64,000 bases of DNA, taken from NCBI RefSeq assembly GCF_003051005.1, contig NZ_QAOW01000003.1, positions 434,001-498,000 on the forward strand, in the 5' to 3' direction. Below, one piece after another: positions 31,725 through 33,809 of the stretch (its first letter is position 1; every line of letters begins with the position of its first letter). This stretch comes from Rhodococcus sp. OK519 (lineage in GTDB: Bacteria; Actinomycetota; Actinomycetes; Mycobacteriales; Mycobacteriaceae). Made by a program: the position numbers and the translations under genes. The notes under the pieces are model-generated. The model was not told the origin of the DNA and did no database searches. It worked only from the letters and a program-made list of their open reading frames with translations.

Positions 31725-32690
31725 ATGGATGCACTGTCGATGATGCTCGCCGGATCGAGGGCGGAGGGCGCATTCCTTCTGCGCTCGCTGCTCGATCCCC
31801 CGTGGTCACTGCGCATCGAGGACCACGCTCCCGTCACCGTGCTGGTTCTTGTGCGCGGATCGGCAATCGTCGTCTCGGACACCGGTCAGAGCGAGTACCT
31901 CGAGGCAGGCGACGTCGCACTCCTTCGTGGACCCGACCCGTACACGGTCGCCGACCGGCCGGACACGCCGCCACACGTGATCATCGACGAGAGCCAGAAC
32001 TGCCACGCTGCCGCCGGAGCACCCGCCCTGCGCATGACCGGCCTCGGCGTCCGGACGTGGGGCAACGCGTCCGGCGGATCGACCGCGATGCTGACCGGCA
32101 CCTACCGATTCGACAGTGTTCTCAGCCGGCAACTGCTCGACAGCCTCACCCCGATCGCGGTGGTGCCCCGCAGCTCCGGCACCGAACCGATGATCGCCCT
32201 TCTGGCGCAACAGATCACGCTGGACAGGCCCGGCCAGGACGCCCTGCTCGATCGGCTACTGGATCTCGTCCTGATCGCATCGCTGCGGGAATGGTCGGCC
32301 CTCAACCCGTCACGGTCGCCGAACTGGATCACAGCCTACGACGACCCGATCCTCGGGAATGCCCTGAAGCTGATCCACAATCAGCCGGAGCGGCCGTGGA
32401 CCGTCGAGAGCCTGGCCCGCGAATGCAATTGTTCCCGCGCCGCTTTCGCACGAAGGTTCTCCGAGCGCATGGGCATCGGGCCGGTCGGCTACCTCACCGA
32501 ATGGCGCCTGTCCGTCGCCGCCGACCTGCTGTCGAACCCCGAACGGACCGTCTCGACGATCGCCACCGAGGTGGGCTACTCCAGCCCGTTCGCGCTCACT
32601 GCCGCGTTCACCAGACACCACGGGGTGAGCCCCCGGGAGTTCCGACGCCGTCAGTGCGCCGAGACCGCCGCGAGCTCGCGGGTGCAATGA
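31725..32690 (+). CDS. AraC-family transcriptional regulator
   Basis: 321 residues. An N-terminal cupin-like sensing domain (AraC_binding_2 style, LLRGPDPYTVAD) is followed by two helix-turn-helix motifs, SLARECNCSRAAFARRFSER and TIATEVGYSSPFALTAAF, ending FTRHHGVSPREFRRR. It is divergent from the nmrA-DUF1772 pair, 80 nt apart, and likely regulates it. TAACTT (31713-31718) 6 nt before the ATG suggests a leaderless mRNA. Its 3' end overlaps the convergent rhodanese gene by 40 nt. Confidence 0.9.
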   Translation: MDALSMMLAGSRAEGAFLLRSLLDPPWSLRIEDHAPVTVLVLVRGSAIVVSDTGQSEYLEAGDVALLRGPDPYTVADRPDTPPHVIIDESQNCHAAAGAPALRMTGLGVRTWGNASGGSTAMLTGTYRFDSVLSRQLLDSLTPIAVVPRSSGTEPMIALLAQQITLDRPGQDALLDRLLDLVLIASLREWSALNPSRSPNWITAYDDPILGNALKLIHNQPERPWTVESLARECNCSRAAFARRFSERMGIGPVGYLTEWRLSVAADLLSNPERTVSTIATEVGYSSPFALTAAFTRHHGVSPREFRRRQCAETAASSRVQ

Positions 32691-33073
32691 CGCTCACCCA
32701 TGAGTGCGCCGAGCAGACCCGCAGCCTTGACGGCCTTGTAGCCGCCCACCAGGTCGGTGGCCTTGTGTAGCCCGAGCTGCCGCAACGATGCCGCAGCCAG
32801 GCTCGAGGTGTAGCCCTCGGAGCACACGATCACCCACTCGACATCGTGATCCACGGCCAACGCGAGGTTCGCGTTGCTGGTCGGATCGAGGCGCCACTCG
32901 AGGACGTTGCGCTCGATGGCGAGCGCACCGGGCAGCGTGCCCTCGATGGCGCGCTGCGCCTGGGGGCGGATGTCCACGAAGATCGCGCCGCGCCGGTAGG
33001 CCTCGGTCAGTTCGAAGACGTACATGCGGTCGATCTGCGAACGAGCGTCGTCGAGCATCTGGTCGATGGTCAC
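32651..33073 (-). CDS. Rhodanese-like sulfurtransferase
   Basis: 140 residues, single rhodanese domain. The active-site loop is VIVCSEGYTSS with catalytic C84; VDIRPQAQR is the typical early motif, and a GGYKAVKAAG helix closes the domain. It transfers sulfane sulfur. GTG 33073 overlaps the stop of cysteine dioxygenase (GTGA), so the pair is coupled and likely handles cysteine-derived sulfur. Confidence 0.88.
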   Translation of the reverse strand: MTIDQMLDDARSQIDRMYVFELTEAYRRGAIFVDIRPQAQRAIEGTLPGALAIERNVLEWRLDPTSNANLALAVDHDVEWVIVCSEGYTSSLAAASLRQLGLHKATDLVGGYKAVKAAGLLGALMGERHCTRELAAVSAH

Positions 33074-33657
33074 TTGGATTCCCCTTCGGGCAGATCGGTC
33101 AGCTCGGTACGGGTGCGGCGCAGCGCACCGTGCTCGGTGACCTCGTAATAGGACATGGCGGCGAGCGGCGGCGAGTACGCGTGCACGCTCAGAGTGGGTT
33201 CGGAGATGTCGGTGACGGGTCCCGGTGCACGCATCACGTCGTGCACCCACCCGAGCGGGAAGGAAGCCTGATCGCCCGCGTCGAGCGTCCGACGACGCAG
33301 TTCGCCGCCCACCCAGCGGTATTCGGCCAGACTGCCGCTCAGCACCGTGAGTGCACCGAAAGACCCTGCATGGTCATGTAATTCGGTGGAGCGGTCGGGA
33401 ACCCAGCTGATCAGCCAGACGTCGACGTCGTCGTCGGAGTGCAGGCGCGTGGACCAGCGCTCGGCCGTCGGGAAGGCTGCCGGCAACAGGTGATCGTGCC
33501 GACCCTCGATGACGTCGGCGGCACCCTGATCGGTGATCCGGAGCAGGTCGGCGGGGCGCAGGCGCGTCGGCAACGACGAACCGAGACGACGGACGTCGGG
33601 ATGAGCGGCAAGATCGAGTGCAGACGTGGAAACGTCAATGGAATATGCAGAATGCAT
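33070..33657 (-). CDS. Cysteine dioxygenase (type I)
   Basis: 195 residues, cupin fold. Iron ligands fit H94 and H96 (TELHDHAGS) and H159 (SVHAYSPP). It oxidises L-cysteine to cysteine sulfinate. ATG 33657 is preferred: GGAG lies 8 nt upstream. Next gene, overlapping by 4 nt, is a rhodanese. A 13-codon cysteine-rich ORF lies 39 nt before the start, so control by cysteine supply through translation is suspected. Confidence 0.9.
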   Translation of the reverse strand: MHSAYSIDVSTSALDLAAHPDVRRLGSSLPTRLRPADLLRITDQGAADVIEGRHDHLLPAAFPTAERWSTRLHSDDDVDVWLISWVPDRSTELHDHAGSFGALTVLSGSLAEYRWVGGELRRRTLDAGDQASFPLGWVHDVMRAPGPVTDISEPTLSVHAYSPPLAAMSYYEVTEHGALRRTRTELTDLPEGESK

Positions 33658-33696
33658 GAGCAAAGCTCCAAGAAGTGAAATTGGTCAAGGCAGCGT

Positions 33697-33738
33697 TCAG
33701 CCTCGACAACACTCCTGGGCGCTCATGCAACGGAACAT
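33697..33738 (-). CDS. Cys-rich 13-residue leader peptide upstream of cysteine dioxygenase
   Basis: Reverse-strand ORF from ATG 33738 to TGA 33697 encoding MFRCMSAQECCRG, with Cys at 4, 10 and 11 (two adjacent). It is too short for gene finders. CACACT, a weak -10-like hexamer, lies 7 nt before the ATG, so the message may start at this codon. Actinobacteria use poly-Cys upstream ORFs that stall under cysteine limitation to regulate sulfur genes; the location before a cysteine-consuming operon fits. Confidence 0.6.
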   Translation of the reverse strand: MFRCMSAQECCRG

Positions 33739-33809
33739 GTCGAACAGTGTGACACAACATCGCCGGCGACGAAACCCCGAAGGCGCCGTGAGACCCGCGA
33801 CTTCGACCC

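Follow-up and report, generated by a model that had tools for sequence, protein, structure and literature searches.

On the minus strand of Rhodococcus sp. OK519, a reading frame of only 13 codons, three of which specify cysteine, precedes a cysteine dioxygenase-rhodanese operon, raising the question of whether so short a frame is a genuine leader, what signal it reads and which of the two genes it serves. The frame, MFRCMSAQECCRG followed by UGA (33697..33738, minus strand; defined by open-reading-frame analysis and comparison of relatives), lies in a 64,000-nucleotide stretch of DNA, hereafter the window. A sequence-only reading of this DNA had proposed that translation stalling at the two adjacent cysteine codons acts as a cysteine sensor, an attenuation that would match use of the dioxygenase to its substrate. 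The features on which that proposal was built, namely the frame and its coordinates, three Cys codons (TGC, TGT and TGT), a gap of 39 nt between the leader and the dioxygenase ATG (33657), and the hexamer CACACT 7 nt 5' of the leader ATG, are all present in the window.

Comparison with related genomes, the check that had been suggested, established that both the leader and its cysteine pair (codons 10-11, TGT TGT, 33711-33706, minus strand) are kept. A 13-codon leader ending MSAQECCRG and containing TGT-TGT was found in 14 out of 14 genus genomes searched, and because of this the leader ORF is confirmed as real, beyond chance. At 80 loci fetched by their dioxygenase (L016-L095), 73 had a short ORF carrying Cys-Cys close to its 3' end, the loci without one being L051, L056, L057, L060, L071, L072 and L073; the ending ECCRG was shared by 40 of these 73 leaders in a search that did not require it. 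The codons of the pair were TGT-TGT in 64 of the 73 and TGT-TGC in 6, and TGC came first only in three loci that were removed as false picks (L058 and L063) or as doubtful (L085), leaving 70 leaders. In the loci L096-L124, 27 out of 29 carried a Cys-Cys leader, L111 and L121 being those without. Mycobacterial leaders retain the cysteine pair, and their flanking residues vary (QECCQA, SRWCCSA, SRECC-stop, GWCCG); the residues beside the pair also differ in Gordonia, VRCCR being among the variants of these two groups. No leader was found in two Gordonia loci, L063 and L073. Inspection by eye of the Williamsia loci L051, L056, L057, L058, L060, L071 and L072 showed that several of them have a short frame opening with GTG, in which a single TGT occupies the corresponding position.

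The first cysteine codon did not fare as well in the same comparison. The search pattern that yielded seventy distinct ECCRG leaders prescribed codons 9-13 and the 13-codon register but left everything upstream free, so the invariance of codons 9-13 in this set is unusable as evidence. Codon 4 specifies Cys in 58 of these 70 leaders and thus varies, which makes the other two cysteine codons the conserved ones. The start codon is GTG in 64 and ATG in 6. The preference for TGT over TGC was also considered, since TGT is rare (4 versus 37 occurrences in 12 stretches of the window), and was set aside as weak evidence, the 12 stretches having been chosen for high third-position GC, which itself favours TGC.

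The genes downstream were identified by profile matches. The first (33070..33657, minus strand) encodes a protein of 195 aa that is devoid of Cys residues and matches PF05995 with 39.6 bits (cut-off 23); the second (32651..33073, minus strand) encodes a single-domain rhodanese of 140 aa that matches PF00581 with 41.1 bits, and its start overlaps the dioxygenase stop. Among solved chains, cysteine dioxygenases scored best for the first protein (64.5 bits); 6xb9, a 3-mercaptopropionate dioxygenase, scored 14.1. In an alignment of 40 rows, H94, H159 and Y161 are invariant and H96 and H139 occur in at least 90%; the roles of these residues, the metal-site histidines presumably among them, are assumed here. 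Together with the PF05995 match, these histidines make the product a predicted cysteine dioxygenase. Its closest named match, 93% in the dioxygenase, is in Rhodococcus hoagii AcN21-7. Upstream of the leader lies coaX (PF03309), followed by genes that we take to be panD and panC. A short ORF with contiguous Cys codons is therefore found directly before a sulfur-metabolism operon. The lack of any Cys in 101 of 121 dioxygenase relatives was weighed as a sulfur-sparing composition that might prove the direction of control, and was rejected as weak, given that the neighbours panC and panD are likewise without Cys.

The region upstream of the leader was compared in the 70 distinct ECCRG leaders. A -10-like element, CACACT (33746..33751, minus strand), stands at fixed spacing, 7 nt before the leader ATG, and is preceded by the TG of an extended -10 (33754-33753, minus strand). 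A is found at -12 in 68 of the leaders, and T at -8, T at -16 and G at -15 in 64 each. A sigma-70 scan requiring a -35 found no promoter at the leader, so that the -10 element alone defines the putative promoter. The constant spacing suggests a leaderless mRNA, with transcription probably starting at the leader ATG itself, in which case 70S ribosomes would begin directly on the leader. Locus L176 has the GAGTGTTGTCGAGGC core and, downstream of it, a rhodanese, and no in-frame ATG or GTG leader start was found there.

Folding, alignments and covariation delimited a structured RNA element of 93 bases (model R1; 33646..33738, minus strand) that spans the leader, the gap and the start of the dioxygenase gene. 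In helix 1, the 5' arm GCAUGAG, formed by leader codons 4-6 (33722..33728, minus strand), pairs with 33660-33654, that is, with the 3' arm CUCAUGC (33654..33660, minus strand), which contains the dioxygenase start codon (33657-33655) and was identified by RNAfold, RNAalifold and covariation. In helix 2, the 5' arm CCCAGGA, formed by codons 7-9 (33713..33719, minus strand), pairs with 33673-33666, and the 3' arm (33666..33673, minus strand), identified by folding and pair retention, contains a Shine-Dalgarno-like GGAG. Helix 3 is an inner hairpin, GUCGAGGC...GCCUUGAC (33684..33707, minus strand), which begins in the second codon of the cysteine pair and overlaps the leader stop. RNAfold predicts the GCAUGAG:CUCAUGC pairing in most relatives with ECCRG leaders, and RNAalifold recovers, unaided, six of the seven helix 1 pairs together with the inner hairpin; both arms of helix 2 are absent from its consensus, which has three local pairs instead (columns 22-24 with 30-32). 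L028, L029, L037, L097, L098 and L101 carry additional GC-rich sequence, folding as a hairpin of its own, after the inner hairpin and before the Shine-Dalgarno arm.

Conservation of the pairing was assessed in an alignment of 44 ECCRG leaders (A1), from which L030 was left out, having been missed by the start-codon pattern. With the three-helix structure, 94.0% of cells were paired, versus 92.9% in shuffles (a level reached by 0 out of 500) and 38-48% when the structure was slid, the latter being a lenient control that favours any structure drawn from one member sequence. Doubly changed pairs numbered 4, versus 1.3 in shuffles (reached by 1 out of 500), and doubly changed cells 21 versus 4.0 (0 out of 500). 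Two pairs of this alignment were unbroken in every row: pair 14-114 (UA in 30, UG in 10 and CG in 4), where a leader with ACG or similar matches GUG starts, and pair 16-112 (AU in 20, GU in 9 and GC in 15). Helix 2 showed a double change in one sequence only. In a larger alignment, composed of 67 distinct rows retrieved with the covariance model and fitted to it, 94.2% of cells were paired versus 36.6-43.6% when slid; the 5 doubly changed pairs were reached by 88 out of 500 shuffles and so do not exceed them, and the 34 doubly changed cells, against a mean of 10.7, were reached by 0 out of 500. Alignment A3 comprised 84 chosen loci, of which 77 matched. These results indicate that the leader RNA pairs with the start codon of the next gene, as evidenced by covariation, and with its Shine-Dalgarno region, as evidenced by folding and pair retention with hardly any covariation. 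The element is thus an mRNA structure that sequesters a start site, demonstrated for the start codon and supported for the Shine-Dalgarno sequence by folding and pair retention only. A comparison with Rfam gave no match above gathering score, the one match obtained being at chance level (asX3, 16.9 bits, gathering 40).

An inner hairpin that overlaps the leader stop is reminiscent of classical attenuators, and the leader might accordingly act on transcription, through attenuation of the Rho or terminator type, and not on access to the start codon. This appears highly improbable, since the start codon itself lies within the covarying helix and no terminator-like site was found between the leader and the dioxygenase gene; the sole minus-strand terminator match, at 33772-33760, is upstream of the leader and does not exceed what shuffles yield (1 versus a mean of 0.5).

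The effect that a ribosome on the leader would have on this structure was modelled by computing the free energy needed to open the stretch from the Shine-Dalgarno sequence to the start codon, either in free RNA or with a 27-nt ribosome footprint placed at each codon. Results were obtained for 71 out of 81 loci with distinct regions, 7 having no match to the Shine-Dalgarno pattern and L058, L063 and L085 having been dropped. For 49 ECCRG leaders, the median opening cost of 14.8 kcal/mol in free RNA dropped to 7.6 when codon 10 occupied the A site and to 10.8 when codon 4 did; for the window leader, the modelled cost fell from 21.3 to 9.0 kcal/mol. A stall at codon 10 lowered the cost by more than 3 kcal/mol in 48 of the 49, the exception being L035 (8.3 to 9.2). 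A stall at codon 4 was the costlier in 46 of the 49, and on this ground, together with its variability and its position inside helix 1, the first Cys codon was discarded as a sensor. A shuffle control was applied to 17 of the 71 scanned loci: all 8 of the ECCRG leaders tested had an opening cost that no more than 1 in 100 dinucleotide shuffles of the leader reached, and 9 out of 9 non-ECCRG leaders tested were not above shuffles, L074 and L092 being more open than 100 and 97 out of 100 shuffles, respectively. According to the model, the leader in Rhodococcus-type loci is itself what masks the start site, and the mask should be lifted by a ribosome paused at the Cys pair.

In the model the hairpin is opened not solely by a ribosome at the cysteine codons but by one at any of codons 5-12. 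The element could then be a constitutive throttle, or a general coupling of the rhodanese to translation of the leader, with the Cys codons as incidental products of pairing, and the TGC of codon 4, lying inside helix 1, does look like such a by-product. We regard this as quite unlikely, however, for mycobacterial leaders in which no such hairpin was found retain the Cys-Cys pair, and the first TGT of the pair is outside the three counted helices, although two of its bases do pair in the minimum-energy fold of the window leader.

The modelled switch was not seen in most of the mycobacterial, Gordonia and Williamsia leaders tested. For 22 other leaders, from mycobacteria, two Gordonia and one Williamsia, the median cost was 5.7 free and 6.8 stalled, and none showed a fall of more than 3. 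A further set of 16 loci gave results for 13 (none for L176, L180 and L183), and 12 of these fell by more than 3, including loci without a dioxygenase and the mycobacterial L119 (9.4 to 5.1 kcal/mol); L101 does not follow the modelled switch (9.9 to 10.3 kcal/mol). A mechanism common to all genera was consequently set aside for now on the basis of the 22 other leaders, although L119 does show the switch. Many of the mycobacterial loci L077, L081-L084 and L086-L095 have a conserved stretch, close to CAATCTATGCAACACTGGCGGCC, that ends at the leader start. Because no start-codon mask was found in those of these loci that were scanned, control may work differently there.

Combined, the conserved codons, the pairing and the energy model indicate that the sulfurtransferase operon is probably governed by a translational attenuator that responds to cysteine. 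On a leader free of ribosomes, codons 4-9 would base-pair with the Shine-Dalgarno region and start codon of the next gene, holding that gene shut. With charged tRNA-Cys plentiful, ribosomes would cross the two UGU codons and leave at UGA, and the hairpin would re-form, so that expression would stay off. With charged tRNA-Cys scarce, a ribosome would wait with UGU in its A site and cover the 5' arm, and the start site, as modelled, would be freed. If a stall opens the start site in this way, shortage of Cys-tRNA should turn the operon on. This is the reverse of a substrate-matched disposal of cysteine and fits sulfur salvage under cysteine shortage as the likely purpose. Both the direction of induction and the response to cysteine are predictions from the structure and the energy model. 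Cysteine-sensing attenuation, as put forward in the sequence-only reading, thus stands with respect to a conserved leader with Cys codons and an RNA structure of the attenuation type; the matching of the dioxygenase to its substrate does not, for the structure predicts expression in Cys-tRNA shortage, the wrong way for disposing of an excess.

The distribution of the element also argues against such matching. Model R1 matched 139 out of 301 genomes of the family, with one match each, including one in the genome of the window, under strict search filters by which weak matches may be lost. The dioxygenase profile matched 222 of the same genomes, 201 of them strongly (E below 1e-60, our own reading of the match table). 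Crossing of the two lists yielded 115 genomes with both, 86 with a strong dioxygenase and no element, and 24 of the 139 element-bearing genomes in which the element persists although no intact dioxygenase of this type is present. A weak dioxygenase match occurs in 12 of the 24; two of these matches are remnants and ten may reflect a distant dioxygenase-like protein somewhere in the genome. Co-presence in these lists is not adjacency, as illustrated by G224, in which a weak element match lies far from the dioxygenase.

Twenty-two of the 24 genomes were inspected (G382 and G388 were left out), and in all 22 a rhodanese gene lies downstream of the element, directly in 20 (the 19 loci L174-L192 plus L169) and behind a dioxygenase remnant in 2. 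Of the 151 helix 1 cells in these 22 loci without an intact dioxygenase, 147 are paired. In L013 (G011) and L014 (G013), both of the same genus, the core of the dioxygenase has been deleted in frame, and the remnants, of 82 and 76 aa, are still open and overlap the rhodanese start. Identity between L013 and L014 is 92/94 in the element, 176/213 (plus 18 gapped) in the remnant, 400/417 in the rhodanese gene and 631/698 in the coaX stretch. At L169, L180, L183 and L192, the start region of the dioxygenase appears to be fused in frame to the rhodanese, with the body lost and the masked start codon kept. Conversely, a dioxygenase match was found in 154 out of 173 loci, five of the 154 being remnants and some genomes being counted more than once; all 154 also have a rhodanese, with gaps of 85 nt or less between match ends in 153. 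On a CoaX tree of 76 rows, whose dioxygenase-less rows were picked on purpose, 7 changes of dioxygenase presence were needed, at least 3 of them forced by well-supported branches. Since the element stays before the rhodanese where the dioxygenase is gone, and every dioxygenase locus has a rhodanese, the rhodanese is the steady target of the leader and the dioxygenase an optional first gene.

In TnaC and other arrest peptides, a ribosome stall on a short leader turns on a catabolic operon. A similar arrest is conceivable here, in which free cysteine would stall the nascent peptide at its own Cys-Cys and an excess of cysteine would open the hairpin and turn cysteine catabolism on, through the same switch and with the opposite signal. 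Such an arrest would tie a cysteine-degrading enzyme to the presence of its substrate, and the ECCRG ending shared within the genus and by the 40 leaders found without requiring it counts in its favour. This is nevertheless an unlikely explanation: the TnaC signal consists of the free amino acid plus a specific peptide, whereas the residues around Cys-Cys vary between genera (mycobacteria and Gordonia), RNA pairing can explain part of the peptide conservation in Rhodococcus, and the element is retained where the dioxygenase is gone.

For the preferred explanation, attenuation relieved by shortage of Cys-tRNA, one point on the opposite side is that a dioxygenase switched on in cysteine shortage is physiologically odd. 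A tentative reading, to which we give slightly less than an even chance, is that the operon is a salvage unit centred on the rhodanese, that the dioxygenase is on in cysteine starvation and, under sulfur limitation, releases sulfite from thiols that need not include cysteine, and that lineages repeatedly discard it and keep the switch, re-fastened onto the rhodanese start. In the available part of a transcriptome study of Gordonia NB4-1Y, three organosulfur sources gave higher expression of a cysteine dioxygenase than MgSO4 did (PMC7661421); this gene is not matched to the dioxygenase-rhodanese locus, and its response is suggestive only, as a hint at the salvage direction. In the proteome of R. 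qingshengii IGTS8, as far as the available part of the report goes, two proteins, one listed as a rhodanese-related sulfurtransferase and the other as a rhodanese, neither tied to the rhodanese of the leader, were lower in sulfate-free, dibenzothiophene culture (PMC8557817), which speaks against the salvage direction.

Further leaders of this general kind are on record. Within the same genome, a second Cys-rich leader, MYANHELMLTRRRAVDLCRLGGCCCPCC (L127:240-323, plus strand; G000 contig 3 near 188133), has TACGCT 7 nt before its start and a rhodanese with two domain matches downstream; it falls just short of the NF042933 cut-off (43.0 bits against 45) and passes that of NF042934 (32.5 bits against 27). 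The presence of this leader before another rhodanese counts in favour of the attenuator proposed here. The NCBIfam entry NF042933 (Ms5788A family) is also a Cys-rich leader and differs from the dioxygenase leader in sequence and length. The latter had no NCBIfam match when the longer frames of four relatives, one of the ECCRG type, were searched, the 13-aa peptide of the window being too short. Canestrari et al. (2020) reportedly described polycysteine leaderless short ORFs of Mycobacterium smegmatis. In the accessible portions of the literature, leaderless short ORFs with Cys codons of M. smegmatis are presented as cysteine-dependent attenuators (PMC9031893, PMC9094748, PMC13236596), and these published examples, compared through citing papers, may include a dioxygenase locus. 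As far as those portions describe them, the M. smegmatis ORFs resemble the window leader in being short, of leaderless type and furnished with contiguous Cys codons before a sulfur operon. On the same basis the window leader differs in that it has only two contiguous Cys codons, in that in Rhodococcus the leader codons themselves form the strand hiding the start codon, and in that it precedes a dioxygenase and rhodanese operon, or a rhodanese alone, in Rhodococcus and relatives. No description of the dioxygenase-rhodanese leader was found in a literature search that covered titles and the beginnings of abstracts, most subscription papers being outside its reach. The leader therefore probably belongs with the known cysteine-responsive leaderless short-ORF attenuators, among which its target is unusual and its build compact.

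If this explanation is correct, control by ribosome-sensed cysteine extends from mycobacterial operons to Rhodococcus and related actinobacteria, and is achieved by a switch of 93 bases in which the sensor codons and the hidden start codon can be changed separately. Natural deletions would reveal which gene the switch serves, and the usual view of the bacterial cysteine dioxygenase as a disposal enzyme would come into question.
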